NCBI GenBank assembly: GCA_020630975.1
Contig: JAHDID010000052.1
Span: forward strand, 1 to 40,688
Length of the DNA: 40,688 bases
Direction: 5' to 3'
Origin: Verrucomicrobiota bacterium
GTDB taxonomy: Bacteria > Verrucomicrobiota > Verrucomicrobiia > Verrucomicrobiales > DEV007
Every line of letters begins with the position of its first letter. Position 1 is the stretch's first letter. Below the pieces are notes generated by a model. It made no database searches. It saw only the letters and a program-made list of their open reading frames with translations, and was not told where the DNA came from. The position numbers and the translations under genes were made by a program. This document shows, piece after piece, positions 6,966 to 20,616 of this stretch.

Positions 6966-7394
6966 GTGGCTCAGTCGACTTGGGACGAAATTTTCTCTGC
7001 TGCAGATGCAAGAGTGGCCAGAGAGTGCTCAGGCTTTACTACCTTGATAGGTTTGGCCGTAGCACCAAGTTTTGTAGTGGGTGGGGCTGTGGGAGATAGC
7101 AAAGTCTATTTTCTTGAGGAGGGTGGCGATTTCAATGACCTGTCAGAGCGCCAAAGAAAAAATCCTCCAATTGGGGGAGGCTGTTCATGGACCACTCTGT
7201 TTCACTTGGCTGAGGCTAAAGGCTCGCTGCTGGTCGTTTCTGATGGCGTTTGGAAATATGCAGGATATGAGAACCTCAAAGATGCTGCGAAAGAGATTCC
7301 CAATGCGGGAGTCGAGGGGCTGCGTGATTGTGTTTTGTCGCGTCAGGGAGGCAGTTTGCCGGATGATTTTTCTATCTTGGGTATGAAGATTTGA
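6966..7394 (+). pseudogene. N-terminally truncated PP2C-type phosphatase remnant
   Basis: The open frame (142 residues from a GTG) matches the second half of a PP2C-type protein phosphatase: a TTLIGLAVA strand, GGAVGDSKVYFLEEGG (the GDS turn), LLVVSDGVWKYAGYE (the SDG metal-binding motif) and a terminal LPDDFSIL. The first half, including the DG metal-binding motif normally near residues 30-40, is absent. The same frame stays open upstream only to a TGA at 6861 and includes an EEAVKVARQF stretch that fits a PP2C helix. In a different frame an ATG at 6860 opens MKTSYCECITQQGGDG, typical of a gene beginning, then stops. A frameshifted or decayed 5' end is therefore likely. Activity is not expected. 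Its 3' end abuts the PHP gene. Confidence 0.6.
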
Positions 7395-7405
7395 GAAATC
7401 GAGTA

Positions 7406-8314
7406 ATGGATACACCTCTCAACTATTTGTCAGACATGTCAGCCACTCCGACCTACTTCGACTCCCACATGCACACCGAGCTCTGCAAGCATGCGGTGGG
7501 GCATCCTGATGCATATGTGGCTCGTGGGGTGGAGCGGGGGCTGGCGGGGATCATCATCACCTGCCATAGCCCGATGCCCGATGGCTTTTCGAATGCGGTG
7601 CGCATGGCGCCAGAGCAGTTCGATGAGTATTGTCAGCTAGTCGCCGGGGCGGCGGCGGCTGCGCCGGATGGATTTGAGGTGCGGCTGGGCATGGAGAGCG
7701 ACTTTTTCCCCGGTATGGAGGGCTGGCTGGAGGAGCTACATAGTCGAGCGGATTTTGACTACATCTTAGGCTCGGTGCATTGGCACATACCTGAGTACCG
7801 AGCAGCCTTTTGGACAGGGGATAGGGATGCCTTCGTCGAGCAGTATTTCGATCATCTGGCAGAGTCTGCGGAGACGGGGTTGTTTGATTCTCTGGCTCAC
7901 CCCGATCTGGTGAAAAATGCCAACGCCGATGGCTGGAGCTTCGAGCGCTACCGCGGTGTGATAGAGGCCGCCCTGGATCGGATCGCCGCTACAGGTGTGG
8001 CGATGGAGATGAATACCTCTGGTCAGCACAAACTTTACCCCGAGATCAATCCCGGACCGACGATGCTCGGACTGATGTGTGAGCGCGGCATCCCGGTGGT
8101 GTTGGGCTCGGACTCCCACCGTCCGGGTAGAGTGGGGGAGAGCTTTGGTAAAGGACTGGGTAAGCTGCAGCGTGCAGGCTATACCACTGTCTCTGTGTAT
8201 AAAAAAAGGAAGCGCAGCGAGATAGCCATCGCCGAGGCGTTGGCTTCGCTGCGCGGGGAGGACGGACCCGATGCTGAGCCCGAGTTGCCACCGTTGCCGG
8301 TGACTACTCGTTGA
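7406..8314 (+). CDS. PHP-family histidinol-phosphatase
   Basis: Predicted 302 residues from the ATG at 7406; a TTG at 7391 and an ATG at 7436 are alternatives, the last giving MSATPTYFDSHMH and also plausible. The PHP metal ligands are easy to see: DSHMHTE (HxH) at the start, ITCHSP, the glutamate of GMESDFFPG, LGSVHWH, LAHPDLVK, and a terminal VLGSDSHRP. Length and order match HisJ/HisK histidinol-phosphatases, which hydrolyse L-histidinol phosphate in histidine synthesis. No other his genes are present here, so a different phosphoester substrate is possible. It ends ten bases before the convergent gene's stop, giving overlapping 3' ends. The C-terminal tail is proline-rich and poorly conserved. 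Confidence 0.85.
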   Translation: MDTPLNYLSDMSATPTYFDSHMHTELCKHAVGHPDAYVARGVERGLAGIIITCHSPMPDGFSNAVRMAPEQFDEYCQLVAGAAAAAPDGFEVRLGMESDFFPGMEGWLEELHSRADFDYILGSVHWHIPEYRAAFWTGDRDAFVEQYFDHLAESAETGLFDSLAHPDLVKNANADGWSFERYRGVIEAALDRIAATGVAMEMNTSGQHKLYPEINPGPTMLGLMCERGIPVVLGSDSHRPGRVGESFGKGLGKLQRAGYTTVSVYKKRKRSEIAIAEALASLRGEDGPDAEPELPPLPVTTR

Positions 8315-9062
8315 TAGTCGCGTTGATCTCGCCGATCTCTCTGGCTAGCTCGGAGATACGTGCGACCTCGTCGGCGTAGCCATTTTCATCATTCTGTAGG
8401 TAATACTCATCACGACGGATCTGACAGGCGACCATCTCGCGGCGCATGTCGAGCAGCTGGCTGCGAAGTGCGGCGTGTGGATCGGTCACTTCATCAGCGC
8501 TGGCAGTGACTTCCATCTCGGTCGTCTTGGCAAACTCTGGCATGCGGTGCGCACGGATCTGATCCGCCTCCATAGCGATCTGGGACATAGGATCATTGGC
8601 CGTCTCGATACCGAGATAGGCGACGACCATAGGTGTGCAGAAGTAGGAAGCAAAAGCGGTGCATAGGCAGATGACCGATATGGCCAGGATCTGTAGAGGC
8701 ACACTCATCCAGGCGCGTGCACCTGCTGGCTGGTCTTCGGCAAAGAGAGCCTCGGCCTCGACCTCGGCAGGAAGATTTTCGACCAACTTATTCTCCAACA
8801 GCCAGTAGAGGAAGGTCCACACATCATCGGCGTCGAATGCATCACCGTGCTTGGATTTGACCTGCTTCACGTGCTCGACAAAAGGCTGACTGCCATCGAG
8901 ACAAAGCATGAGACGATACTGCCACGGCTCGATGATAGTAGCTGGCAAGCGATCTGGGATAGACGCTTGGATAGTACCAGCTGTATTAGTGAAAGAGATA
9001 CCTCGACGTAGCTTCAGGGGCTGAGGTAGGAAAGTCTGTGGGTCGTGTGTCCAAGATTTCAT
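8304..9062 (-). CDS. Single-pass membrane protein with PqqD-like N-terminal domain
   Basis: Predicted 252 residues. The frame remains open to 9467, but that extension overlaps the subtilase gene; the ATG at 9062, after an AT-rich leader, gives a sensible MKSWTHDPQTF start. Residues about 40-100 (RLMLCLDGSQPFVEHVKQV then DVWTFLYWLLENKLV) look like a PqqD/winged-helix domain, as found at the front of some M50 peptidases and HlyD-like adaptors of this phylum. A membrane helix lies at about 125-150, and the C-terminal 90 residues form a probable extracytoplasmic coiled coil. The protein resembles an adaptor truncated before its lipoyl/barrel domains. Its 3' end overlaps that of the PHP gene. Function unknown; likely linked to the neighbouring subtilase/GAF genes. 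Confidence 0.6.
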   Translation of the reverse strand: MKSWTHDPQTFLPQPLKLRRGISFTNTAGTIQASIPDRLPATIIEPWQYRLMLCLDGSQPFVEHVKQVKSKHGDAFDADDVWTFLYWLLENKLVENLPAEVEAEALFAEDQPAGARAWMSVPLQILAISVICLCTAFASYFCTPMVVAYLGIETANDPMSQIAMEADQIRAHRMPEFAKTTEMEVTASADEVTDPHAALRSQLLDMRREMVACQIRRDEYYLQNDENGYADEVARISELAREIGEINATINE

Positions 9063-9178
9063 GTTTGTTATCGGAATTATAATAATTTTAATACCTAAAC
9101 AATTAGGGGCAACAAATATTTTAAAAATATAAACTAAATTTTTAAAATTTCCCCTGCTTTTTCCGAGGACACCCTGAT
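9063..9178 (-). promoter_or_regulatory. AT-rich leader/promoter region
   Basis: About 115 bases of very AT-rich DNA separate the subtilase stop from the next ATG on the same strand. On the minus strand TTGTTG, 16 bases and TATTAA form a possible -35/-10 pair. ATTATAATAATT (9076-9087) recurs in inverse orientation at 11728-11739. The exact promoter is uncertain. Confidence 0.35.
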
Positions 9179-9964
9179 TTATAGCGGGTCTCGCTCGATC
9201 GGGGTCGCGATATTGGCCAGCAGGGGCTTGATGGCTGCTGGCTCTAGCTCTGGATATTGCGACAGGATTCTGGCGATTTTCCCAGCGACGCGAGGTGCGG
9301 CAAAGCTGCTGCCGGTCTCGACTTTGGATGTGCCATTGATCCATGGCACCTTGATACGCTCGCCTTTGGCCATGAATGAGATCATGCGCCCGGGCTGAAA
9401 GAAAAGCTCGTCTGGGTCGCAGTCGATCGCTCGCACCCCATGGACACTGGGGAAGTAGGCCGGCCACTCGCGTATGCCAGACTCTAGATTGCTACAGGCG
9501 GCCACGATCTGCACGCCATTGAGGTAGGCCAGGTCGACCCACTCTTTGTATTCCATGACGTATTTGGGCAGCCCTCTGCAGCCGAAGCTGCAGTTGATGA
9601 TGTGGTAGCCTTTGGAGATAGCCAGGTAGACCGCCTCGGCTATGACGAAACCTCGGGATCGATTCTGGGTATCCAGTGCTCGAAAACTGCCGACCTGCAC
9701 GCCGGGTGCTTCATCGAGTAGGACGCTAGTCACAGCAGTGCCGTGCCCGTAGGCATCGGTGCCGTTGCCCTCTTCGAAGACGATATTCATCCCATCGCAG
9801 GATACCACGACATCGTCGGCGAGCTCTAGGCCTGCCAATGCTGGGTGAGCCGCCTCGACTCCTGAGTCGATGATGGCTACTTTCACGCCCTCGCCGGTGC
9901 CGGTAGCTAGTGCCTGCCGAGCCTCATCTAGCGTGGGCCATCTGGTATCAGGTTTAGCACTCAT
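9179..9964 (-). CDS. Subtilisin-like (S8) serine peptidase, cytoplasmic type
   Basis: Predicted 261 residues, a bare subtilase catalytic domain without signal peptide or obvious propeptide. The catalytic triad is complete: Asp33 in VAIIDSGVEAAH, His74 in YGHGTAV and Ser220 in TGSSFAAPRVAG (GSS instead of the usual GTS). Asn159 in VAACSNL occupies the oxyanion-hole position. About 20 residues precede the first catalytic strand, a short lead. Lack of a secretion signal implies an intracellular target, as in maturation peptidases of peptide-modification clusters or in regulatory proteolysis. It overlaps the end of the GAF gene by 11 bases, so the two are translationally coupled. Assignment to the family is firm; the substrate is unknown. 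Confidence 0.88.
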   Translation of the reverse strand: MSAKPDTRWPTLDEARQALATGTGEGVKVAIIDSGVEAAHPALAGLELADDVVVSCDGMNIVFEEGNGTDAYGHGTAVTSVLLDEAPGVQVGSFRALDTQNRSRGFVIAEAVYLAISKGYHIINCSFGCRGLPKYVMEYKEWVDLAYLNGVQIVAACSNLESGIREWPAYFPSVHGVRAIDCDPDELFFQPGRMISFMAKGERIKVPWINGTSKVETGSSFAAPRVAGKIARILSQYPELEPAAIKPLLANIATPIERDPL

Positions 9965-10556
9965 CGAAGCCTAGTGCGACCGATAGCAGTTTGCCATTGA
10001 GGAGGCGCTCGACATGGTTGCCGGCTTTGAGCATCTGCTCGATGTCGGCGCTCTCGAAGCCGCCCATTTCATCGGCGTCTTTCTCCTGTAACTGGACACA
10101 GGAGATCACACCGCGTAGCCCAAAGGCGAAGTAGAAGGGGATAGCCACCATGGCGTGGGTACTTTTGTGGATCTGGCGATCTAGCGTGTCGTCGTGCGCT
10201 GCGGTCTCTGTGCCGATCTCATTTTCGCAGTAGGGCTGCTGCTGGCAGTAGACCATGGATACGATACCACTGCCGATCGGTTGCTCGAATCCGACGATCT
10301 CTTTGGCATCGGGGCCAGAGTTGAGCACGGCTGTGAGCTGCTGGCCGCTAGCGTCGGATAGCCACACTGTGCCCTCCGAGCCGCCGATGTGCTCAAAGGT
10401 CTGGGTGAGGACATCCAGACACGCATGATCCAGCAGACTGGCGATATCGGTAGGCCTGCTGGATGCGATCCAAGACTCGATGTGGCTCTCCACATCGGTC
10501 CCGTATTGGGAGAAACTTGAGTTCTTTAGGAAATTCAGACGATTCCGTGGCTTCAT
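9954..10556 (-). CDS. GAF-domain protein
   Basis: Predicted 200 residues, soluble. Residues about 25-190 form one GAF domain: DHACLDVLTQTF helix, GTVWLSDASGQQLTAVLNSG strands, IGSGIVSMVYCQQQ (the IG-GI-S--- turn before the helix), HAMVAIPFYF, GVISCVQLQ, and a terminal helix at DIEQMLKAG. GAF domains bind small ligands or act as redox/dimerisation modules. No output domain is fused, so the protein may regulate its neighbour directly. The start overlaps the preceding stop as ATGA, and the end overlaps the subtilase start by 11 bases, which indicates coupled translation of a three-gene operon. Cysteines in the putative ligand region (PYCENE, ISCVQ) are visible, but no cofactor can be inferred. 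Confidence 0.8.
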   Translation of the reverse strand: MKPRNRLNFLKNSSFSQYGTDVESHIESWIASSRPTDIASLLDHACLDVLTQTFEHIGGSEGTVWLSDASGQQLTAVLNSGPDAKEIVGFEQPIGSGIVSMVYCQQQPYCENEIGTETAAHDDTLDRQIHKSTHAMVAIPFYFAFGLRGVISCVQLQEKDADEMGGFESADIEQMLKAGNHVERLLNGKLLSVALGFDEC

Positions 10557-10777
10557 GACTGGCGACTTTTGATCGCCGCGACCAGATCGTGTAGAGCTTG
10601 TTCGTTTTCTATCAGAGTGGGGAGCAGAGACTCTCTGTCTTTGGCACTCAGGCTACCTGAAACGAAGCGTTTGATTAGATCTAGCTGCTCATCCGTCACT
10701 GGTAGCGACTCATGGCCGATCACTTCAGGTCCCATCTCTTCGAGAAATTGATTCAGTAAGGCAAATTCGTTTTCCAT
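10553..10777 (-). CDS. Small acidic helical protein, first gene of the GAF/subtilase operon
   Basis: Predicted 74 residues, mostly helical and acidic, without cysteines or membrane segments. The central part, LIKRFVSGSLSAKDRESLLPTL, resembles the short helical segments of zinc-less anti-sigma-like or adaptor proteins (a SGxLSxxxRexL pattern), but the match is generic. Its stop overlaps the GAF start (ATGA), so it is co-translated with the sensor and peptidase. It could be a regulator, adaptor or substrate of the subtilase; a precursor peptide role is possible but not supported by any core-like sequence. The reading frame is supported by the tight overlap. Confidence 0.6.
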   Translation of the reverse strand: MENEFALLNQFLEEMGPEVIGHESLPVTDEQLDLIKRFVSGSLSAKDRESLLPTLIENEQALHDLVAAIKSRQS

Positions 10778-10869
10778 TTCTTAGTTTGTCACTGGTTTTT
10801 GGTATGCCAATCTGACGGGCGCTCAGGAATGTTATGCAGGTTTTGTAGAAAAAAACTCGTTTTTCCTTT

Positions 10870-10896
10870 TTGACAGGATTTCTCACATTCTAAATT
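10870..10896 (+). promoter_or_regulatory. Putative sigma-70-type promoter
   Basis: TTGACA (10870-10875), 15 bases, then TAAATT (10891-10896), 17 bases before the ATG at 10913. The -35 box is perfect; the spacer is two bases short of ideal. Confidence 0.45.
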
Positions 10897-10912
10897 CGCT
10901 AAGCTAGACGTC

Positions 10913-11557
10913 ATGAACCCACCTACTTCGCCACCACCCGTCCACCAGCCCTATGCTCAGTCGAATTGGCCGCTCACCTTCGGCATTTTGGGCCTGCTGC
11001 TCAGTGTGGTGGGCTTTATCGGGGCCGCCTATCAGGCGCTGATGTGTTTTGCTATGGGGCAGTCTCATACCAGGTTGACTACTAGTGTGACATCTGGAGG
11101 CACGACGACGACCGCTGGTGTGGATGAAGCTGTCACGGAGGAGTTTATGGCACTTTTTGCCGATGTAGCGGCGAAGAAGATCTACGTGGAGGGCGGATTG
11201 TGCCTGTTGGCAGTCATTTTATTCGTGGGATCGATACTGCTGATGTGCCGCTATCGGATCGCCCGTCCCATCATGACGGCCTGGGCCTACGCTAAGATCG
11301 GTGTGGGGCTACTGGCTGTCTACTTCACTCAAAAGTTGTACCTAGGGATGATGAGTATGACAGAGGAGATGGCTGGCACTGTATCAGGAGCGGCAGGGAT
11401 GGGCCCTCTGTTTCCCGAAAAACTAACAGGGACGATCAGCGTGGTGATTATATTGCTGGGTGCGATTTGGGTTTCGCTGTATCCGGTGCTGCTTTTGATC
11501 TGGATGGGCAAGGAAAGCAGCAGGCTCGATATGCAGAATGGCTATGGCTGGAAGTAG
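10913..11557 (+). CDS. Four-helix integral membrane protein, unknown function
   Basis: Predicted 214 residues. A proline-rich cytoplasmic start is followed by four membrane helices near residues 20-45, 92-112, 122-142 and 172-198. A Thr/Gly-rich loop (about 50-75) separates helices one and two, and a Gly/Met-rich loop precedes helix four. The arrangement matches small verrucomicrobial membrane proteins without assigned function. It is monocistronic, divergent from the GAF/subtilase operon across a 135-base gap with a good -35 box, and is followed by a strong hairpin. It does not carry the AT-rich leader typical of the island genes, so it may be unrelated to them. Confidence 0.65.
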   Translation: MNPPTSPPPVHQPYAQSNWPLTFGILGLLLSVVGFIGAAYQALMCFAMGQSHTRLTTSVTSGGTTTTAGVDEAVTEEFMALFADVAAKKIYVEGGLCLLAVILFVGSILLMCRYRIARPIMTAWAYAKIGVGLLAVYFTQKLYLGMMSMTEEMAGTVSGAAGMGPLFPEKLTGTISVVIILLGAIWVSLYPVLLLIWMGKESSRLDMQNGYGWK

Positions 11558-11601
11558 CCGCGCTGAGAGAGTGCGTGAGCGCGCCTTTTAGAAAAGAGAA
11601 A

Positions 11602-11633
11602 AGCGGCGTCGGACCCTAAAGTCCGGCGCCGCT
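11602..11633. terminator. Bidirectional hairpin terminator
   Basis: Arms 11602-11614 and 11621-11633 are 13 bases with one G-T type mismatch and a 6-base loop. A T-rich tract follows on the minus strand; on the plus strand there is none. It lies in the gap between convergent genes. Confidence 0.65.
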
Positions 11634-11769
11634 CTCGTTACCCCTCAACACAAAAATAGCAAATCAATGCTATGGGAGACCATACTCCAGATTTTCGTCA
11701 GTTTCAAATAATTTTTATAAAAACCATAATTATTATAATCCAGGCGGGGTATCGTCTCCAAAAAGGAAA

Positions 11770-11793
11770 AGGCCACCAGATCAGTGGTGGCCT
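11770..11793 (-). terminator. Rho-independent terminator
   Basis: Perfect 9-bp arms AGGCCACCA (11770-11778) and TGGTGGCCT (11785-11793) with a 6-base loop. On the minus strand the stem is followed by TTTCCTTTTTGG, as expected for termination of the RodZ-like gene ending at 11884. Confidence 0.75.
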
Positions 11794-11883
11794 CACGTTC
11801 CGACAGCGATGAAGCGCTGTACGGAGTCTATCCTGTAGCCTGCTACAGATAGGATGAAAATAAAAAGGAACAGCTAGTAGAGT

Positions 11884-12465
11884 CTACTCCGGCTTCAGGC
11901 CGACTGGGATCGGGCTTTGCACCGGCGAATCGCCTTTCTTGGAAGCGGATTTTACGATATCAGTCTGCCCTGCAGTCTGGATCTCGGTCACCACTTTCGC
12001 GGGAACCTCAGGCTGACCTGCTACAGGTAGGCCTGTGTTTCTGAGATCCGCTTTCGAGCCGAGATAGTAGAAACCTCCCAGAAGCGTCACTAGAGCGACC
12101 AGCGATCCGGATAGAAAGATGGGCGTGCCATTGCGATCTGCCGCCTTTCGGTAGCGTGGAGTGGCTAGCGAGACATCACTGGTCTCTAGGCTCTCTTTGA
12201 TCTGAGATTTGGCCACACCAGTCCGTGTCGATGAATATCCCTCTATCTTCAGAGCATCGACTTGATGCCGCACGTCCATTCCGAGGAAAGAGCCATACTT
12301 TTTGATAAAGCTCTTAGCCAGGGTAGGGCTACCGAAGACCGAATAATCATCAGTCTCCAGGCAGTTCAAGATACGAGCGTGGATTCGTGAGTGGTGACTC
12401 ACATATTCTAAGCTCCATCCGCGCTCCTTACGGACAGATTTTAACTGTGTTCCTATTGAGTTCAT
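11884..12465 (-). CDS. RodZ-like HTH single-pass membrane protein
   Basis: Predicted 193 residues. The N-terminus (IGTQLKSVRKERGWSLEYVS through ILNCLETDDYSVF) is a helix-turn-helix of the HTH_25/RodZ type, including the family's FIKKYGSFLGMD stretch near residue 54. A membrane helix follows near residues 115-136, then a short Pro/Gly-rich extracytoplasmic tail ending PIPVGLKPE. RodZ proteins link MreB to the membrane, but this one lacks the usual C-terminal beta domain and is much shorter, so it may instead act as a membrane-anchored regulator. The exported tail shares the PIPVxL motif with two other island proteins. It is preceded by a plausible promoter and followed by a rho-independent terminator. 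Confidence 0.75.
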   Translation of the reverse strand: MNSIGTQLKSVRKERGWSLEYVSHHSRIHARILNCLETDDYSVFGSPTLAKSFIKKYGSFLGMDVRHQVDALKIEGYSSTRTGVAKSQIKESLETSDVSLATPRYRKAADRNGTPIFLSGSLVALVTLLGGFYYLGSKADLRNTGLPVAGQPEVPAKVVTEIQTAGQTDIVKSASKKGDSPVQSPIPVGLKPE

Positions 12466-12556
12466 TCGTGTTTCGGGTGCCAGCGGGCCAGTTGCTCAAA
12501 TCGAGTCGTGACACGACCGGTCTGAGAAAAAGGGGGGCATATCCCTGCTGACTATA

Positions 12557-12585
12557 AATTTAGGACATCCGGCAAAAGCGGTCAA
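12557..12585 (-). promoter_or_regulatory. Putative sigma-70-type promoter of the RodZ-like gene
   Basis: On the minus strand TTGACC (12585-12580), a 17-base spacer, then TAAATT (12562-12557). It sits about 90 bases upstream of the ATG at 12465 and downstream of an AT-rich segment. Spacing is ideal and each box is close to consensus. Confidence 0.5.
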
Positions 12586-12618
12586 TCAAAATTATGAAAT
12601 TTATATAAAATATAAAAA

Positions 12619-13995
12619 TTATATGACTACCACGTTTGCCTTTTTAAGCACTCGGGTGACCTCGCCATTCTCGTAGACATAGCCAGGGCGTAGGGTTTCG
12701 AGGACGGTAGCGGACTGATCAGTCTCCTGTTCGGCAACTTGTTTCAGGGCTTTTCTTTTGAGTTTGCCGTCTTCGAGAGCCTCGATGTCGATGAGTTGCA
12801 CCTTGTTGCGGTCGTCTGTGTTGAGACGGTTGCCAGGATTTACCTCAAAGATCTGCACGGAGTGATCCAGGAGTAGATCGACAAAGCTCTCACGGATTTC
12901 CAGAATGTGTTGTTTGATACCTGGGGCCAGCAGTAGTTTTGGATTCTGGCTGGCCAGCAGGTCGTCGATGAGATCCATCCGATTGACGATCTCGCCACAC
13001 ATACGGCGCTCGGTTTCCTCTGAGATAGGGAGATTGTCCCACTCGTTTGTGTATGAATTTTTGCGGCTGATGGAGCCTTTCTTGAAACTGCCAATCGAAG
13101 TTTTCAGCTCGCTTTCGGTCTTCTTCAGTTTCGCGACATTTTTCTTAGCCTCAGCCAGTTCCTCGCGAACAGCTGTGGTTTCCTTATCCAGCTTCTCTTT
13201 CTCGGCTGCCAGTTTGGCGGTCTCTTGAGTGATAGAAGATTTGCTAGACCATAGATCGACCAGTTCATTCTGGAGGTCCTCGATCTGCTTCTCGACGTCT
13301 GCCTTCTTGCTAGTGTTTGCGTCAGATTGGTTGACAGTTGTCTCAGCTTTTTCAGCCTTTGCTAGGTCGCGACGAGCTTCGTCGAGATTTCTTCTCATCT
13401 CGGCTAGCTCAAAGACCATGTCAGCTTTCTCGGCTTCGGTGGATTCCAAAGCTGCGATTAGTCTTTTATTCTCGAGTGTGAGAGCGGCATCTGCCTCGGG
13501 CTGAGCGGGCTTGACTTCGGCTTCGCGGTTGCTCTCCAGTTCGTTGCTCAATTGATTGAGATCCTTATCCTTGATGTCCAAGGAGGGCGGCATGGCGTGA
13601 GCGCTCTTGTTAGTAGCGGTATCAGCCTTTGCTTTCATCTTGCTGGCAGGGGCTTTCTGCATGAGTAGCTCGCCCATACCTAGACCTGAGTCCGAGTCCG
13701 CATCGGTCGTGTTCAGGACACAGACTTGGTCGCCAAAGCGAAGTTCGTCGCCCTCTACGATGCGCATTTTGCCTTTTACCTGCTCTCCATTCAGGAATGT
13801 CCCGTGGCTGGAGTAGCAGTCGGTGACGTAGAATTCTCCATTCACACCTTGTACGATTTCGGCGTGGTACGCAGAGATGCTGTCGTCATCGAGTTGGATG
13901 TCGTTGCCTGCCCGGCTACCTATGGTAGTGCGACCATCAGTTAGCTGAACAGCCTGTTTATTCTGCTGCTCACTTGGTATCTGTAGTTGTAGCAT
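12619..13995 (-). CDS. FHA-domain coiled-coil protein with a GrpE-like C-terminus
   Basis: Predicted 458 residues, soluble. An FHA domain occupies residues about 1-95, with the phosphopeptide-binding GSR (26-28), SAYHAEI (41-47) and SSHGTFLNG (62-70) motifs; it should bind phosphothreonine. A long charged coiled coil runs from about 140 to 300. The last 130 residues recall GrpE: a MDLIDDLLASQ helix, then LAPGIKQHILEIRESFVDLL, DHSVQIFEVNPGNRLNTDD (compare the GV..ie..G..FDP region), and a terminal VLETLRPGYV plus RVLKKANVVVI that mirrors GrpE's VLRPA.V.V strand. The order helix, coiled coil, beta end also fits GrpE. This is a possible phospho-controlled nucleotide-exchange-factor relative; no Hsp70 is present in the window. 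The leader has an inverted repeat near the start. Confidence 0.75.
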   Translation of the reverse strand: MLQLQIPSEQQNKQAVQLTDGRTTIGSRAGNDIQLDDDSISAYHAEIVQGVNGEFYVTDCYSSHGTFLNGEQVKGKMRIVEGDELRFGDQVCVLNTTDADSDSGLGMGELLMQKAPASKMKAKADTATNKSAHAMPPSLDIKDKDLNQLSNELESNREAEVKPAQPEADAALTLENKRLIAALESTEAEKADMVFELAEMRRNLDEARRDLAKAEKAETTVNQSDANTSKKADVEKQIEDLQNELVDLWSSKSSITQETAKLAAEKEKLDKETTAVREELAEAKKNVAKLKKTESELKTSIGSFKKGSISRKNSYTNEWDNLPISEETERRMCGEIVNRMDLIDDLLASQNPKLLLAPGIKQHILEIRESFVDLLLDHSVQIFEVNPGNRLNTDDRNKVQLIDIEALEDGKLKRKALKQVAEQETDQSATVLETLRPGYVYENGEVTRVLKKANVVVI

Positions 13996-13998
13996 AGT

Positions 13999-14058
13999 CC
14001 CGTTTTATTTCGTGTTTCAAATGTTTCATGAGCTCCGCTAGGAGTGTGGTAAAACGGG
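13999..14058 (-). promoter_or_regulatory. Inverted repeat in the FHA gene leader
   Basis: CCCGTTTTA (13999-14007) and TAAAACGGG (14050-14058) are perfect 9-bp complements 42 bases apart, just upstream of the ATG at 13995. In the transcript they could pair and occlude the start region, or the two half-sites could bind a protein. Confidence 0.4.
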
Positions 14059-14131
14059 GATTTTACTTTGGCAGGCAGGCCAGTTGTGTTTCGTTTACTT
14101 ACACGTGTCAGCGAGGTCAGAAGGTAGAGTT

Positions 14132-14419
14132 TTATTTAGTGTCGTGTTGGTTTGTGTGTAGCAGGCTGGTTAGGCACTTGATCAGTTTTCTTGGAATTTG
14201 ATTCAACGTTAGGGTGGCGTTGGGCTTCCAAAGACTGAGTGCCTGTAGATAAGAATGGGCGTTAGAAATGACAGCGCTGAGGGTAGGGACCCCAGAGTTT
14301 TTGTCATTGCCAACCTCCGGTGAGAACCACTTAAGCAAGCTGCTCAAGGCGAAACAGAAGATCATCAAAAAGAATGATCCTGTCGCTATCAGCCAGAGTG
14401 TCTCGGTAGAGGTGTCCAT
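14132..14419 (-). CDS. Small single-pass membrane protein
   Basis: Predicted 95 residues with one membrane helix at about residues 8-29, followed by a soluble basic tail with no recognisable domain. It has one of the few clear Shine-Dalgarno sequences in the window (GGAG eight bases before the ATG), which supports it as a real gene. It lies divergent from the PstS-OmpA gene across an AT-rich region and upstream of the FHA gene on the same strand, 136 bases away. Role unknown; probably part of the same island. Confidence 0.55.
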   Translation of the reverse strand: MDTSTETLWLIATGSFFLMIFCFALSSLLKWFSPEVGNDKNSGVPTLSAVISNAHSYLQALSLWKPNATLTLNQIPRKLIKCLTSLLHTNQHDTK

Positions 14420-14482
14420 TATGTTTCTCCATAAACAATAAAGTAAGTTTTAATAAAAACAAAGCAAAACCTTCGTGATGCC

Positions 14483-14510
14483 TAGACTTTTTTAAAAATC
14501 AGGCTATAAT
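14483..14510 (+). promoter_or_regulatory. Putative promoter of the PstS-OmpA gene
   Basis: TAGACT (14483-14488), 16 bases, then a perfect TATAAT (14505-14510), 40 bases before the ATG at 14551. It lies in an AT-rich divergent intergenic region. Confidence 0.5.
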
Positions 14511-14550
14511 ATTATCAAAATTACAAAAATAATTGAAATTTAAATTCGTG

Positions 14551-16086
14551 ATGAGCGTATTTTTAAAAAATTTACGATGGGTTCTCAATCTTACCGGAGT
14601 CGCCGCTTCGGTAGTGGCCCTGTTTTGTGTGTGCAAGATAGCGGGGCAGAGTATGCGCTCGGATCGTCTAGTACAGACACCTGAATCAGGCAAAGTGTCA
14701 GCGGCCAATCTAGCTGACGAGGTAGATCCTAGGCCGCGTCTGGCCCCATCCGCGCCGACCGTGGCCGACACAGAGGCCACGCTCCTCGCGCAGATGCCTA
14801 TCCCAGTAGCTCTAGTAGCTAGCGCTACGGAGGCTGGTGAAGAGTCTGCGGCCCCTAGTCGAGAGTCACAGATGGTAGAGCAGGTGAAAGCTGTGTCTGC
14901 TCTGGCTGGTATCGGGCCTGATCTAGCGACTAGCTTAGCGCAGGGCTATCTGGCTAAGGCGGGCTATACCGAAATCGAGGTAGGACCAGAGCAGACCTGG
15001 GTGAGAGGTGGCATGGCTGACACTCAGTTGCGTATCTCGTGGGAGGATCTCACTCCTACAGGAGGATCATTGGCAGAGCGCCATAATGCGGCCATAGCAT
15101 ACGAGGGCGTGGCATTGCATGGCCATCGAGAGCACCCGTGCACTAGTCTGACAGTACGCCAGATTAAAGCCATTTTGAATGGCGAATTCACCCAGTGGGA
15201 GACGGTCGGCAGCAAGGGGGGAAAAATAAACCTCTATCTCTGTAAGCAGGATGTCGATAAGATAGAATCGGTCATATCCCGGTCACTACGCATCAAACCT
15301 ACGAGCTGGAAGCGCCGCATCAAACAGACCGCTAGCACATTTGAGCAATATCAGGAGCTAGTCGCGAGCGATCCGCAGGCTCTCGGACTGGCCAACGTGA
15401 CTTTCTCAGATACGGCCAACAAGATCTTGTCTCTGAAGGCCGATCCCAAGGCACTTCCGATCATGCCGTCTCGATTGTCATTCGCCAGCGGTGCCTACTC
15501 ACTCTCGCAGCCTGTGTCGCTGATCATAGCTAAGAGCGATGAAGATCCGGCACTTCATCAGGGGCTTATGGCCTTTGCGAGATCGGCAGCAGGTCAGAAT
15601 ATCGTCCGTGACCTGGGCTATCGTGGCTACGATTCTGACGGTTTCGATGTCGACCAGCGCAGCCATGACCTGCATATGCAGTATCTACTCAGCAATGAAT
15701 CTGTGCCTGAAGATTACCGAAAGCTAGTGGCCACAGCAGATCGTCTCGATTCGCCCAGAAACTTGTATTTCAGACAGGGCAAGATGCTGCTCACCGAGGA
15801 GTCGAGTGAATATCTGGACGATGTCGCTGCTGCGCTCAAGCGCGATGGTGGTACGGCTCGGGCTCTGCTGATTGGATTCACAGATCATGTCGGTACGGCT
15901 GAAGAGAATGTCGTCTTTTCACAGCAAAGAGCTCACTACGTGAGAAAGAGATTGATCGAGAGAGGCATCAAATTTTCTCAATCAAAGGGTGCCGGATTCG
16001 GCGAAGAAATGCCCCTCGGCGATAATGAGACCGAAGAAGGTCGGGCCCTCAATCGTAGAGTAGAAGTCTGGATGATTCGGCAGTAA
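14551..16086 (+). CDS. PstS-like substrate-binding domain fused to OmpA C-terminal domain
   Basis: Predicted 511 residues from the ATG at 14551 (an upstream TTG at 14533 would add six). An N-terminal signal anchor (about residues 8-30) is followed by a Pro/Ala-rich linker with PIPVALVA near residues 83-90. Residues about 150-350 resemble a phosphate-binding PBP2 domain: IAYEGVALHGHREHP, TVRQIKAILNGEFTQWETVG and SLSQPVSLIIAKS are typical PstS elements. The C-terminal 110 residues are an OmpA/MotB-type peptidoglycan-binding domain, with LLIGFTDHVGTAEENVVFSQ and NRRVEVWM (the conserved NRRVE). Such fusions tether a solute-binding domain to the cell wall. No Pst transporter genes adjoin it, so a sensor or scaffold role is more likely than transport. 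Confidence 0.85.
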   Translation: MSVFLKNLRWVLNLTGVAASVVALFCVCKIAGQSMRSDRLVQTPESGKVSAANLADEVDPRPRLAPSAPTVADTEATLLAQMPIPVALVASATEAGEESAAPSRESQMVEQVKAVSALAGIGPDLATSLAQGYLAKAGYTEIEVGPEQTWVRGGMADTQLRISWEDLTPTGGSLAERHNAAIAYEGVALHGHREHPCTSLTVRQIKAILNGEFTQWETVGSKGGKINLYLCKQDVDKIESVISRSLRIKPTSWKRRIKQTASTFEQYQELVASDPQALGLANVTFSDTANKILSLKADPKALPIMPSRLSFASGAYSLSQPVSLIIAKSDEDPALHQGLMAFARSAAGQNIVRDLGYRGYDSDGFDVDQRSHDLHMQYLLSNESVPEDYRKLVATADRLDSPRNLYFRQGKMLLTEESSEYLDDVAAALKRDGGTARALLIGFTDHVGTAEENVVFSQQRAHYVRKRLIERGIKFSQSKGAGFGEEMPLGDNETEEGRALNRRVEVWMIRQ

Positions 16087-16365
16087 TTTAATAAATTAGA
16101 GCTAAATTCATCGGTTTTGAGAATTTAATTTTAAATTTTTATTAAAGTTGAATTGATTTTTAAAATCTTTTGGGCATATTCGAATCATGCCGAGAGGGTC
16201 GGCACCAAGGGGTTATTGAGGAAACAGGGGAAGTGAGTCGGCTTTGAGAGCTGCCTCACCATCCCAGCTCGAGTCGAGCTAGCCTTTGTTGACGGCTTGT
16301 TTCAACGAAATCACTAGGTGTCGGTCAGAGACAAATGTCACTGCCTGCCTCTCTCTTGTGATTAT
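16087..16365. promoter_or_regulatory. AT-rich intergenic leader with a palindrome
   Basis: The first 90 bases are strongly AT-rich, like other leaders in this island. AGCTCGA (16266-16272) and TCGAGCT (16274-16280) form a 15-bp operator-like palindrome. A weak TTGATT/ATATTC pair could be a promoter. No gene or RNA is evident. Confidence 0.4.
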
Positions 16366-18129
16366 ATGAAACCAAACGAAGATTCTGAATCCCCTATTTC
16401 AGATTCGTTAAACTCACAAGCCCCCGAGAACAAAAGTTTAACGGATTCTCGATCAGGTGTAGCAGATCGACTACACGAAACCCTATTTCGGTCGGAGGCA
16501 GTTGTCGCACTGGTTCACGATCTCGGGCCGAATATGGATAGTTGGGTCTGCGAAGGTTTGCAGACATCACTCAAGAAAAATCCAGCATGTGGCTACATCA
16601 TGTCGCTGCATCTCGATGAGGGCAAAGATCCCATCGATCAGCTGCGCAACTTGCTCTGCAAGACTGTGACGATGGATGCTCAGAATCTCCAGGCTAATGA
16701 GCCGGAGCGCTGGGCTCGCATGGTCAGCTCGTCACTGCGGGGCGGCCAAGTCGGAGCATCTCTACTGACCGTGGAGAATCTCGATGCTATTCTGACTGCT
16801 CCGTGGACGACGCAGTGCGCTTTCGCTGAGATCATCTGTCACCTATCCTGCGAGATCGAGCTCGCAGTGCTAGTAGGTATCGAGAAAAAGGCTGTGGGCT
16901 GTATCGCGACATTGCCTGGATTTTGGTTCCTTAGCTCTGCTCCCGCAGGCGTCCACCAAGTGCCAGGTTTTTGGGCACCACCATTGGAAGATGCAGCCAA
17001 AGACGGGCAGCCTCCTCGCCACAGTGTCGTCGAGGACCGAGCTAAATCCAAGAGCAGCCAAGTCTATCTGGCACTGGCAGCGATGATATCGATAGCACTC
17101 GTCGTCACCTCGCTGTTTGTCGAGAGACGAGCGACTCGTACAGCTCGCAAGGTAGCTGCTCGTATGGATATCATGAATGTGACTTCACCTCTAGAAGTCG
17201 CATGGAACCAGACACCTACGGATAGCTTTCAGTCCAACCCGATACCTGTCTCTCTAGTGGCAGATAGCGGATCTCTACCAGCCGATATCGGAGAGCCACA
17301 CAGCTATCTCCCCGTCGTCAGCGAGGTCGATGGCTCTGAGGTTAGCGATGCAGATGCAGCGCCTAGGCCGGTCACTATCCCAGAGTGGGCCGAGCATTCC
17401 ACAGAGGATCGCTATCTCGAGTCTCTACTGTCATTCGAGAGTCTCCCCTATGAGCTGATCGGCAAGTCCGGTAGCATAGACGCAGGGCGCCCTGCTGATC
17501 AGGAGACAATCATGGCCAAACAAGGTGCAGATGTCCCAGTCGGGAATTCTCGTAAAAGACCACAGATCGTAAAGATACAGCCGAAGTCGGCATCCTCTGA
17601 TATGGGAGTCACGTTTCCAGTGTTGGCTACGGGTGGGTATAGCACAGGGGATCAGCAGACAGCCCAGGTCGAGCAGGACTTTCGGGCGCATGCGGCATTT
17701 CGTTTGGGATCATCTCAGTTGTTCGAGGCCCGAGCCGAGTCGGATTATCACTTAGCTCTGAAGAATCTCCACGAAGCTCGTCGCCAGTATCACAGCGATG
17801 CGGACTACCTGATCGGTATCTGCTACCTCAGTGGTCTGGGTGTAGAGGTGAGCCATTCTCGAGCATTCGTTCATTTCGCTGCCGCAGTAGATGGCGGCAG
17901 TATCGCAGCTTGCCGAGAGGCAGGGCGTATGAGCGAGATCGGTATGGGCACATCATCCGACATGGCGCTCGCGGTTAAGTTTTATCGCAAGGGTGCAGAT
18001 CGTGGCGATCCATACTGCCGGGCTAAATTGCAGGAAAGTGGGATCTCAGTCGATGCATGGGCCAAGCCTCCCAAGGAGCACTGGCTCAATGCTAAGTGCC
18101 GTGGACTCCTGCCAGATACGTTCCTCTAG
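16366..18129 (+). CDS. Sel1-repeat membrane protein with a P-loop-less ATPase-like N-terminus
   Basis: Predicted 587 residues from the ATG at 16366; the frame extends to a GTG at 16318, but the added residues look unconvincing. The N-terminal 215 residues have alternating strands and helices (ALVHDLGP, CGYIMSLHLDEG, GASLLTVENLDAIL, ELAVLVGIEKKAVGC) reminiscent of AAA/STAND modules, without a Walker A loop. A membrane helix lies at about 232-251. The exported part begins with a disordered stretch containing PIPVSLVA (292-299) and ends in Sel1-type TPR repeats (LGVEVSHSRAFVHFAAAVDGG, MGTSSDMALAVKFYRKGADRG). Sel1 repeats mediate protein contacts. It is followed 57 bases later by the pseudokinase gene and is probably co-transcribed with it. 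Confidence 0.75.
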   Translation: MKPNEDSESPISDSLNSQAPENKSLTDSRSGVADRLHETLFRSEAVVALVHDLGPNMDSWVCEGLQTSLKKNPACGYIMSLHLDEGKDPIDQLRNLLCKTVTMDAQNLQANEPERWARMVSSSLRGGQVGASLLTVENLDAILTAPWTTQCAFAEIICHLSCEIELAVLVGIEKKAVGCIATLPGFWFLSSAPAGVHQVPGFWAPPLEDAAKDGQPPRHSVVEDRAKSKSSQVYLALAAMISIALVVTSLFVERRATRTARKVAARMDIMNVTSPLEVAWNQTPTDSFQSNPIPVSLVADSGSLPADIGEPHSYLPVVSEVDGSEVSDADAAPRPVTIPEWAEHSTEDRYLESLLSFESLPYELIGKSGSIDAGRPADQETIMAKQGADVPVGNSRKRPQIVKIQPKSASSDMGVTFPVLATGGYSTGDQQTAQVEQDFRAHAAFRLGSSQLFEARAESDYHLALKNLHEARRQYHSDADYLIGICYLSGLGVEVSHSRAFVHFAAAVDGGSIAACREAGRMSEIGMGTSSDMALAVKFYRKGADRGDPYCRAKLQESGISVDAWAKPPKEHWLNAKCRGLLPDTFL

Positions 18130-18186
18130 TATAGATAGCGATTCGTCTTTTTACGTTGTTCTTTTGTCTATCATTAAAGAATAGTC

Positions 18187-20616
18187 ATGGATAATTTAGT
18201 TATCGACGGTTTTGATATTCAGCCAGATCCGATTGGCTCTGGCATATCGGGCAAAGTCTACCTCGCCAAGTCTCAAAAGTCTGGCGAGAGATATGCGATC
18301 AAGGTCTACTCCGCTATGGCGATAGACCGGCAGATCCTAGAGGCCACACTGACCAGTCTGGATAGCATGCCAGCGCACGATGGTCTGCTCCAGCCTGTCA
18401 CTTATAGTATGGAATCTGGGCCGAGCTATGCGGTCACCAAGTGGTGCGATGGTATGTCCCTATCAGATATCGTAGTGGCAAGCGAGGCAGAGGCCTGGAG
18501 TATCATCCGCAAGGTCGCCGATGCGATGGGGCACTTGCATAAGTACAATGCGATTCATGGCAATTTGCACCCAGGCAATGTATTCTACGAGCCTGCGGAG
18601 GATGATCAGCCGCAGACTGTCCAGATAGGAGATTTCGGTGCGGGCCTGATGGGTGAACTGTGCAATGTCGACTTGGATGATTTTGCGTTCTTTGCGGCGC
18701 CCGAGCAGCTGACCTCTCTAGGGAGTGATTTCAGTCGAGAGGCGGCACGCCGCTGGGATGTGTATCGCTTCGGTGCATTGGCATTTTGGCTACTGCGTGG
18801 CGAGTACCCGCGAGGCCGGATGTACTGGAAAAGCTGGGTGCGCCAAGAGGATGCTAAAGGTGGGCACTCCGTGCCTATCGATCCTCATGATCTCGTGGAT
18901 CATCTCCACCTATCCCCAGAACTGGAGTGGGGGAGGAAGATCGGCGAGAGAGAGCCTCAGCGGCAGTGGAAGGCGATTATCGAGTCCTGCTTGAAGTTGG
19001 ATCCAAAGGATCGCCCTGTCGACATGCGCGAGGTGAGAAACCTTTTTCAACGTATCGAGAGAGAGATGGCGTCTGCTCGGCAGGATGCAGGTGTGTCTCA
19101 GCAGATTGCGAGATCTGAGACTCAATACAAGGACAAGATCAGGAAGCAGCGTTCCAAATTGGTCACCTCTAGGGCGGCGGCATGGATGCTGGGGATTTCT
19201 TGTATCGGCGCATCATACTTTCTCTCCAGCTATCTGCGTAAGACCATATATGCAGACTCGAGGATCGATAAGTTGACGGTGCAGATCGAGCGGCAACAGA
19301 GCAAGATAGCCGATTTGGATTTGGCTGTAGAAGTCAAGGACATGCAACTGCGCCAGTCTCGGCAGGTGGCGGACAGTTCCTTCTATCAACTCACGCAGAC
19401 AGGCACGAGTAGGGGCGGGACTAATACCAGCGATCTCGAACAGTCCCGCGATTACTACTTATCGATATTGGCAGATCTAGACGATCAGCCAAATGATTTA
19501 GCAAAGGTACGTGCGCTGCACAGCCTAGCTCATATCGAAAGGCAGATGGGCCGGAACTTAGAGGCGATGGCCAATTTCCAAGAGGCGGTCACTTTGGGTG
19601 CCGACCTAGCGGATCTCGATATCGTCAAGCGTCTGGCTGATAGCTATGAGTATTTAGGGCTGCTGTCCTCGGATGTGGACGATGTCGCACTGATCGAGAT
19701 CTACCAGAAGGCCATTGGCTACTTTCAGGAGACTCTGACTAGCCAGCCGAGTGATGGTATCTCAGCCCTTCGACTAGCTAAACTGAGCTTTCGCCAGGGC
19801 AAGCTACTCAATCGGCAGGGCATGCAAAAGCAAGCTATCGAGCTATACACTCGCGCAGCTGGCTACATCACCGACCTGCGTCCTGACTATGATGCGTCAG
19901 CGGCGAGTGTGGAGATGGATCAGTGGGTGGCAAAGCTACAGTTTTATGCCGGCGAAGCCTTCTCAGCTGATCAGCAGAACCAGCGTGCCATCGATGCCTA
20001 TATCGCGACGATCGAGTCGATCGAGCGTCTATCACAGGGAGAATTGTTTTGGAACCAATCGAATATCCTTCTAGCCCGCAGCTACATCGGGCTGGGTGAT
20101 ATATTTGTTCGGAGTGATAATGTGACCAAGCACGATTCGGATCAAGTGTATAACGAAGCTCTTCGTCTGCTCGCCCCGATGAATCGGGATAATCCAAGGG
20201 ATGTCGAGGTCGCACGTCTGCTATGCCACGTTTCTTCGCGAATTGCGGGGTTAGAAAAGTTCAAAGGTAATCCCAAGGCCGGTTATGTGCTTTCGGTTCA
20301 GGGGATCGAGAGTCTCATTCAGGCACTCGATGCGTCTCCTTCTGATCTGGATGGCTTCCTGAAACTGGCAGAGGCTCGTCTTGATCATTTGGAGTTTCTG
20401 AAGAAAGACAAGACTCGCTCCAGAACCATCGCACGCCGGGGTATCGATACTGCCAAGCACGCACACAGTTTGGCGCAGGGCAGCCCATCGCCAAAGATCG
20501 CCGAGCAGCTCAGGCACGTTTTTGTGAGGTATGGCGAGATCTGCCGGACATTAGGCGAAGAAACGCGCGCCGATGAGTGCACAAAATTCGCCGCCTATCA
20601 GGTAACACAGCGCTAA
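18187..20616 (+). CDS. Membrane-anchored Hanks-type pseudokinase with TPR-like exported region
   Basis: Predicted 809 residues. Residues 1-290 form a protein-kinase fold: glycine loop GSGISGKVYLAK (18-29), the ATP-binding lysine in YAIKVY (Lys39), DFGAG (149-153), APEQ (171-174) and DVYRFGALAF (191-200). The catalytic loop reads IHGNLHPGN (123-131) instead of HRDLKPxN, so the catalytic Asp is Asn126 while the Mg-binding Asn131 and Asp149 remain. This predicts ATP binding without normal phosphotransfer, or an atypical enzyme. A membrane helix spans about 328-349, followed by a coiled coil (355-395) and a long helical TPR-like region to the end, presumably periplasmic. It is the last gene of its operon, ending in a good terminator. 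It may use the FHA protein as partner. Confidence 0.88.
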   Translation: MDNLVIDGFDIQPDPIGSGISGKVYLAKSQKSGERYAIKVYSAMAIDRQILEATLTSLDSMPAHDGLLQPVTYSMESGPSYAVTKWCDGMSLSDIVVASEAEAWSIIRKVADAMGHLHKYNAIHGNLHPGNVFYEPAEDDQPQTVQIGDFGAGLMGELCNVDLDDFAFFAAPEQLTSLGSDFSREAARRWDVYRFGALAFWLLRGEYPRGRMYWKSWVRQEDAKGGHSVPIDPHDLVDHLHLSPELEWGRKIGEREPQRQWKAIIESCLKLDPKDRPVDMREVRNLFQRIEREMASARQDAGVSQQIARSETQYKDKIRKQRSKLVTSRAAAWMLGISCIGASYFLSSYLRKTIYADSRIDKLTVQIERQQSKIADLDLAVEVKDMQLRQSRQVADSSFYQLTQTGTSRGGTNTSDLEQSRDYYLSILADLDDQPNDLAKVRALHSLAHIERQMGRNLEAMANFQEAVTLGADLADLDIVKRLADSYEYLGLLSSDVDDVALIEIYQKAIGYFQETLTSQPSDGISALRLAKLSFRQGKLLNRQGMQKQAIELYTRAAGYITDLRPDYDASAASVEMDQWVAKLQFYAGEAFSADQQNQRAIDAYIATIESIERLSQGELFWNQSNILLARSYIGLGDIFVRSDNVTKHDSDQVYNEALRLLAPMNRDNPRDVEVARLLCHVSSRIAGLEKFKGNPKAGYVLSVQGIESLIQALDASPSDLDGFLKLAEARLDHLEFLKKDKTRSRTIARRGIDTAKHAHSLAQGSPSPKIAEQLRHVFVRYGEICRTLGEETRADECTKFAAYQVTQR

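Follow-up and report, generated by a model that had tools for sequence, protein, structure and literature searches.

Most of the well-studied extracytoplasmic function (ECF) sigma factors are freed by membrane proteases. The closest working analogue of the switch proposed here is the CalpL/CalpT/CalpS system associated with type III CRISPR in Sulfurihydrogenibium, in which, according to passages of its published description, a ligand-activated protease cleaves an anti-sigma factor that is in complex with its ECF sigma factor (PMC11417357). QhpE, as passages of the report on it describe, is a cytoplasmic, subtilisin-like leader peptidase that acts in a single turnover during the maturation of quinohemoprotein amine dehydrogenase (PMC7876137). 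Here we describe an operon in a 40,688-nucleotide stretch of DNA, hereafter the window, which comprises positions 1–40,688 (forward strand) of contig JAHDID010000052.1 from a Verrucomicrobiota bacterium (Verrucomicrobiales; DEV007; assembly GCA_020630975.1). The operon encodes a small protein (SM), a GAF-domain protein, a cytosolic subtilase of family S8, and a transmembrane (TM) protein whose N-terminal domain resembles PqqD and the recognition element (RRE) of ribosomally synthesised and post-translationally modified peptide (RiPP) pathways. We consider it somewhat better than an even bet that these four genes form a soluble switch that acts by proteolysis on the control of an ECF-type sigma factor, whose gene lies elsewhere in the genome.

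CalpL is a Lon-SAVED protease activated by cyclic tetra-adenylate (cA4), whereas in the window the protease is an S8 subtilase, its GAF partner is a separate protein and the anti-sigma candidate has 74 residues; neither CRISPR genes nor a Cas-like protein were recognised by eye in the list of open reading frames (ORFs) of the window. QhpE resembles the proposed system in being, on the passages cited, a cytoplasmic subtilase whose target is encoded in the same operon (PMC7876137), but it has another substrate and other partners, and no qhp genes were recognised by eye in the window. By the tests made, the window system belongs neither to the Calp systems nor to the QhpE subtilases.

We infer the activities that make up the proposed mechanism. 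SM would bind the sigma factor as an anti-sigma factor, its three-helix core being joined through a conserved PEVxGH loop to one more helix at the N-terminus. The GAF protein would sense a cytosolic signal and gate the subtilase, which would then cut SM within the PEVxGH loop and free the sigma factor. The freed sigma factor would read a TGCATAA-N14/15-CGTC promoter located before SM, such that the brake and the protease are both remade in a feedback loop.

Organisation and conservation of the operon

The conserved unit of the window comprises positions 8304–10777 together with a promoter at 10814–10838, and its four genes are co-directional on the reverse strand. SM (10553–10777; 74 residues), a candidate anti-sigma factor and protease substrate by gene order and fold match, carries the sequence PEVIGH in a predicted loop (residues 15–28). 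It is followed by the GAF-domain protein (9954–10556), a candidate sensor for the protease, which matches Pfam GAF_2 with an E-value of 7.4e-5, under the Pfam cut-off, and by the subtilase (9179–9964; PF00082 Peptidase_S8, E = 6.8e-23, above cut-off), in which D33, H74 and S220 form the catalytic triad and N159 is the oxyanion residue. The last gene (8304–9068) encodes the membrane protein, which has no Pfam match and was assigned its RRE/PqqD-like N-domain from an AlphaFold model and Foldseek comparisons.

Close homologues of the subtilase (at least 61% identity) occur in 29 of the 33 genus genomes; the other four genomes are 52–77% complete, and one of them (G016) carries a diverged SM-GAF-S8 set at L147 (L, G and C labels denote the opened loci, genomes and contigs of this analysis). 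SM and GAF genes lie immediately upstream of the subtilase gene in all 29 loci with a close S8, the RRE/TM gene was detected in 24, and a convergent gene for a PHP/HisJ-like phosphatase (7439–8314, forward strand, in the window; NCBIfam PRK07328, above cut-off), which we keep out of the mechanism, flanks the operon in 23. Comparison thus shows that the SM, GAF, S8 and RRE/TM genes make up a conserved operon; the initial annotation had correctly grouped the cytoplasmic subtilase with the GAF sensor, the small protein and the PqqD-like membrane protein, a coupling that is strongly conserved.

A paralogous module, here type B, was also observed in 24 loci (L076–L079, L118, L119, L121–L134, L136, L137, L139 and L143), where GAF and S8 genes are followed by a downstream L,D-transpeptidase gene; a coiled-coil protein was matched in five of them and sulfatase genes lie nearby in L076–L079.

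Linkage of SM to a sigma factor gene and its predicted fold

In other genera of the family, genes for a sigma factor, SM, GAF protein and S8 subtilase follow one another in this order and in one direction in 11 loci, namely L074, L080, L081, L114, L115, L117, L135, L138 and L144, with L140 and L141 recognised by a hidden Markov model (HMM) of SM. Named-species genomes, when scanned, added three loci with this order (L187, L189 and L198) and four in which it is rearranged (L186, L191, L192 and L196, the last from Chthoniobacter flavus). At L186 (2120–3603) the sigma gene is followed by two tandem SM-like genes, with a third hinted at by tblastn, and these are divergent from the GAF-S8 pair. The sigma and SM genes are thus adjacent in other genera but not inside the genus of the window, and no SM gene was found around 14 solitary sigma genes (L160–L173).

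The sigma gene of the window genome lies on contig C35. Its product is 71% identical to the sigma factor of L114 and scores 67.2 bits against NCBIfam TIGR02937 (sigma70-ECF; cut-off 42.9); against Pfam it scores 34.2 for Sigma70_r2 (cut-off 24) and 14.2 for Sigma70_r4, under the cut-off of 24.1. The gene is present in 27 of the 29 genus genomes that bear the module, and where it shares a contig with the subtilase gene (15 genomes) it is always upstream on the same strand, at a distance of 9.5–23.0 kb. Comparison across these loci shows that the sigma and SM genes are linked.

The structural model of SM (mean predicted local distance difference test score, pLDDT, 76.7) has a helix at residues 2–14, a loop at 15–28 and three further helices at 29–40, 45–57 and 59–73. 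When aligned structurally with 180 chains, its top three matches were anti-sigma domains: MucA-cyto with AlgU (Z 5.3), RslA with SigL (5.1) and RsiW with SigW (4.8), which superpose on SM residues 26–74 with root mean square deviations of 1.6–1.8 over 47–49 residues. Two more anti-sigma chains (4nqw and DdvA) score Z 3.2 and 3.1 and are separated from the top three by unrelated chains. The predicted three-helix core of SM may resemble that of the ECF anti-sigma domains of MucA, RslA and RsiW, whilst SM differs from these proteins in being soluble, without a TM segment or zinc motif (both judged by eye), and in that an exposed, conserved loop carries an additional helix at its N-terminus. Within this loop PEVxG[HR] occurs in 34 of 41 SM sequences, where shuffled sequences lead one to expect 0.005. 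What lends weight to SM as a candidate anti-sigma factor is the gene order, which is independent of the fold match.

The promoter upstream of SM

A motif search identified an ECF-type promoter, TGCATAA-N14-CGTC, at 10814–10838 on the reverse strand, 36 bp ahead of the SM start. Searched with TGCATA-N14..17-CGTC, the window matches exactly at this site alone, although shuffling the window 100 times produced at least one such match on 24 occasions. Allowing one mismatch, TGCATAA-N14/15-CGTC is found in 37 of 41 regions upstream of SM (0.08 expected from mononucleotide shuffles), and in the nine sigma-SM operons that were first found in other genera it lies between the sigma and SM genes in six. 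In 32 aligned sites with 15-bp spacing the two boxes hold 1.1–2.0 bits per position, values that are partly built in as the sites were selected by their boxes, and the spacer 0.06–0.45 bits. The boxes are conserved whilst the spacer is variable, and the motif is therefore unexplained by common descent alone. Comparison thus shows that a conserved promoter precedes SM.

The same pattern leads to a second kind of operon. At least 11 genus genomes contain a third, distant S8, and in five (G023, G024, G026, G028 and G029) a promoter match lies 4.3–5.7 kb upstream of it on the same strand. In all three loci that were opened (L151, L274 and L278) the promoter precedes a gene for a GrrM-type radical SAM (rSAM) enzyme, identified in L151 by a scan (443.7 bits, cut-off 310) and named by eye in the other two. 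The operon of L151 (550–5705) encodes, behind the TGCATAA/CGTC promoter, the GrrM-type rSAM enzyme, a precursor, an MNIO enzyme, a GAF protein and an S8 subtilase. L150 (594–5564) has precursor, MNIO, GAF and S8 genes, with neither an exact promoter match nor an rSAM gene within the stretch fetched.

The subtilase and the signature that it may recognise

Residues D33, H74, N159 and S220 are each retained in at least 97% of 71 S8 relatives, and comparison thus shows the catalytic triad to be conserved. Neither an export signal nor a propeptide was seen by eye in the window subtilase. Its closest NCBIfam models include mycosin and QhpE, both below cut-off, and PatA; QhpE is the second-best model (89 bits, cut-off 165) and the best for the S8 of L151.

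Pairing with a GAF protein extends to other phyla: a set of 17 distant S8 loci includes 10 with a weak GAF match (22–30% identity) upstream of the subtilase gene. Small ORFs with at least two copies of [DE][VT]x[GA]H occur in six of these 17 loci (L201, L203, L204, L208, L210 and L216), in none of 38 more distant S8 loci (L217–L254), and in none of 60 other loci, of which 30 are promoter-pattern loci (L255–L284), some at SM operons and so with S8 neighbours. A slightly wider motif gave such ORFs in 18 of 40 further S8 loci, searched over up to 1.5 kb on each side (L291–L293, L295–L298, L302–L305, L308, L309, L311, L313, L315, L320 and L328), whilst the 38 and 60 control loci belong to the narrower motif. 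The 18 divide into 16 of 29 loci from a Chloroflexota search and two of 11 from an Actinomycetota search, one of these two (L320) being a duplicate of L204. The tandem proteins show DVEGH, DTEGH, DVSGH and similar variants, and it is possible that those near the Chloroflexota and Actinomycetota subtilases represent an unlisted family of propeptides. No literature match listed for DVEGH, DTEGH or EVEGH was on the subject by its title.

Related sequences occur in the RiPP operons, where the GrrM-type precursors of L150 and L151 have DVEAH immediately ahead of the core and that of L156 has DVVPH; at L200, a 70-residue protein directly upstream of GAF-S8 contains GPEVVAH. We suggest that the signature [D/E]-[V/T]-x-[G/A]-H is the recognition site of the protease. 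On this basis we tentatively propose, at rather less than even confidence, that one widespread family of GAF-paired cytosolic subtilases recognises it throughout, processing tandem-repeat propeptides in Chloroflexota and some Actinomycetota, splitting leader from core in the GrrM/MNIO operons and acting on the signature within the anti-sigma factor in Verrucomicrobiota, such that a peptide-maturation protease was turned into a transcription switch. The account that we find likeliest is that a RiPP-type subtilase was taken over for the regulated proteolysis of an anti-sigma factor.

The membrane protein

The membrane protein comprises an RRE/PqqD-like domain (residues ~15–100), a predicted TM helix (122–143), a linker and a C-terminal helical hairpin (~199–253). 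In the AlphaFold model the N-domain has a pLDDT of ~91 and the hairpin, which bears the most conserved stretch of the family, ~97. Foldseek matched the N-domain to the lasso peptide RRE TbiB1 (probability 1.00, TM-score 0.67 over the target) and to PqqD (5sxy; probability 0.96, TM-score 0.62), with no E-value below 0.001 and with GdmN chains ranked among the RRE/PqqD matches. As modelled, the N-domain has the PqqD/RRE fold, so the earlier PqqD-like label stands by fold match, but without Pfam support. The window protein differs from known RRE/PqqD proteins in lacking a Pfam match, in carrying a fused TM helix and helical hairpin, and in that no RiPP enzyme was recognised beside it. Our guess is that it may tether SM or the subtilase to the membrane; in the proposed switch it would probably act in this way and couple the tethered partner to the exported hairpin.

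Weighing the proposed switch and its alternatives

Several observations weigh against a proteolytic switch for the sigma factor. The sigma and S8 genes lie on separate contigs in 12 genus genomes, that of the window included, and two of the 29 module-bearing genus genomes yielded no sigma gene. The promoter motif is absent at L081, L111, L117 and L144. A wide regulon under the promoter pattern was rejected: across the 33 genus genomes the exact pattern gave 112 matches (0–14 per genome) versus 74 for a reversed control (0–11 per genome), and therefore no regulon is visible past the SM operon and one RiPP operon, the link to the latter being present in five of the at least 11 genomes with a third S8. 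A Z score of about 5 on a small helical bundle is weak, the alignment tool itself warning that such a match may reflect just a common arrangement, and the fourth-ranked chain for SM is a virus capsid (Z 4.5). Searched by sequence against the PDB and Pfam, SM matched no anti-sigma family and gave chance-looking matches only. The loops of SM from one genus (L081, L117 and L144) read P(T/E)IEAR. The RRE/TM gene was not found in five of the 29 genus loci, of which L113 ends near a contig end and L062, L064, L073 and L111 gave no detection by HMM. Amongst the 40 S8 loci searched with the wider motif, 22 have no tandem-motif ORF within 1.5 kb, including nine of the 11 from the Actinomycetota search, and the precursors of L211 are without a DVEAH-type motif.

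The alternative that survives best treats SM as a precursor from which a small signalling or modified peptide is made, with the subtilase as its leader peptidase, the RRE/TM protein binding the leader and helping export, and the sigma factor only driving expression. The RRE-like fold of the membrane protein, the occurrence of GAF-S8 inside a GrrM/MNIO RiPP cluster, the tandem D(V/T)EGH proteins adjoining S8 elsewhere and the presence of the leader peptidases QhpE and PatA among the closest NCBIfam models all speak for it. However, neither within the operon nor next to it was a modifying enzyme or exporter recognised, conservation and helical structure extend over the whole length of SM without a variable core, the SM gene stands downstream of the sigma gene in other genera, and the SM core is best matched by anti-sigma domains. 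We therefore regard a peptide precursor as unlikely.

Less probable still is a role for SM in inhibiting or chaperoning the subtilase in place of the absent propeptide, with the pair controlling another substrate. Such a role would suit an S8 enzyme without a visible propeptide, and the close S8 of the genus is always accompanied by SM and GAF; against it, SM was undetected in the type B module and beside most of the distant GAF-S8 pairs, and at L186, where the GAF-S8 pair is divergent, it still accompanies the sigma gene. That the operon is part of a 12-kb envelope phospho-signalling island with the FHA, pseudokinase, PstS-OmpA, Sel1 and RodZ-type genes, for which proximity in this window alone speaks, we consider highly improbable, since the homologues do not co-occur in the opened loci and the kinase has lost its catalytic Asp.

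Neighbouring genes

The proteins that the initial annotation had placed in this island do exist at or near the positions it gave, and their FHA, OmpA, PBP_like_2, Sel1, HTH_25 and kinase domains score above Pfam cut-offs. They are a RodZ-type helix-turn-helix membrane protein (11884–12465, reverse strand; HTH_25, E = 2.7e-15), which scores 45.2 bits against the streptococcal rodZ model of NCBIfam (cut-off 375), an FHA-coiled-coil protein (12619–13995, reverse strand), a PBP_like_2-OmpA (PstS-OmpA) fusion (14533–16086, forward strand), a Sel1-repeat protein with one likely TM helix (16366–18129, forward strand), and a pseudokinase-TM-TPR protein (18187–20616, forward strand), in which HGN replaces HRD. 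We regard all five as neighbours only. The single membrane helices ascribed to several of the proteins agree with our judgement by eye, and the pseudokinase was correctly recognised, since all 15 aligned members, that of the window included, have another residue in place of the HRD Asp. The label FHA/GrpE-like holds for its first half (FHA, E = 2.6e-18), but the GrpE-like C-terminus is without Pfam support, yet its homologues adjoin Hsp70-like genes.

Co-occurrence was assessed by blastp (E ≤ 1e-4) in 39 opened loci of up to ~20 kb each. None contains two or more of the RodZ, FHA, PstS-OmpA, Sel1 and kinase homologues, and none has any of them beside the subtilase, so the 12-kb island as one unit was rejected. 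The cell-wall-anchored phospho-signalling assembly that had been guessed from it falls too, as the annotation had itself named the absence of homologues from one another's company as refuting it, and the kinase is without its catalytic Asp. Across 74 genomes from this family, with the genome of the window counted each time, homologues were found in 37 for the FHA C-terminus, in 25 for the kinase C-terminus, in 16 for the Sel1 protein (via its repeat region only) and in seven for the N-terminal part of PstS-OmpA, all weak except the window's own. In G025, which has the most similar subtilase, homologues of the island genes lie on contigs C60, C72 and C85, with a PstS-like match 74 kb from the subtilase gene. 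No RodZ homologue was found in the 39 opened loci, no genome-wide RodZ search having been made, and 14 kinase loci (L082–L095) contained no other island gene.

Some of these neighbours belong to conserved families in their own right. An Hsp70-like gene, recognised by eye, adjoins the homologues of the FHA C-terminus in nine of 11 distinct opened loci (L005, L007, L011, L015, L017, L021, L022, L004/L025 and L023), but not in the paralogue L024, and L018 is ambiguous. At L023 (8291–11710) and L025 (3–2101) an FHA-coiled-coil, or long coiled-coil, protein is paired with the Hsp70-like gene; the FHA protein of the window is a paralogue of this family and itself has no Hsp70-like neighbour. The pseudokinase-TM-TPR family is conserved without the HRD Asp in the window and at L082–L095, and in six of its genus loci (L085–L090) a recurrent neighbour resembles, by eye, subunit I of a cbb3 oxidase. 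The N-terminal part of the Sel1 protein (16366–17100, forward strand) has by eye the look of a degenerate AAA ATPase, with no Pfam match. A short PP2C-like protein, perhaps a fragment, is encoded at 6966–7394 (forward strand); no more than 43 residues of the profile are matched, with an E-value of 0.0011 that misses the cut-off.

Significance

Neither a subtilase/anti-sigma switch nor D(V/T)EGH propeptides are described among the literature matches listed, which are open-licence PMC papers. If the proposal is true, it would add a new route of sigma factor release, in which a soluble, ligand-gated subtilase attacks an anti-sigma factor that is itself soluble. In Chloroflexota and Actinomycetota, the shared D(V/T)EGH signature would then flag a group of tandem-repeat propeptides. 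The module, present in 29 of the 33 genus genomes and in several other groups of Verrucomicrobiota, predicts a cut site, a promoter and partner genes.

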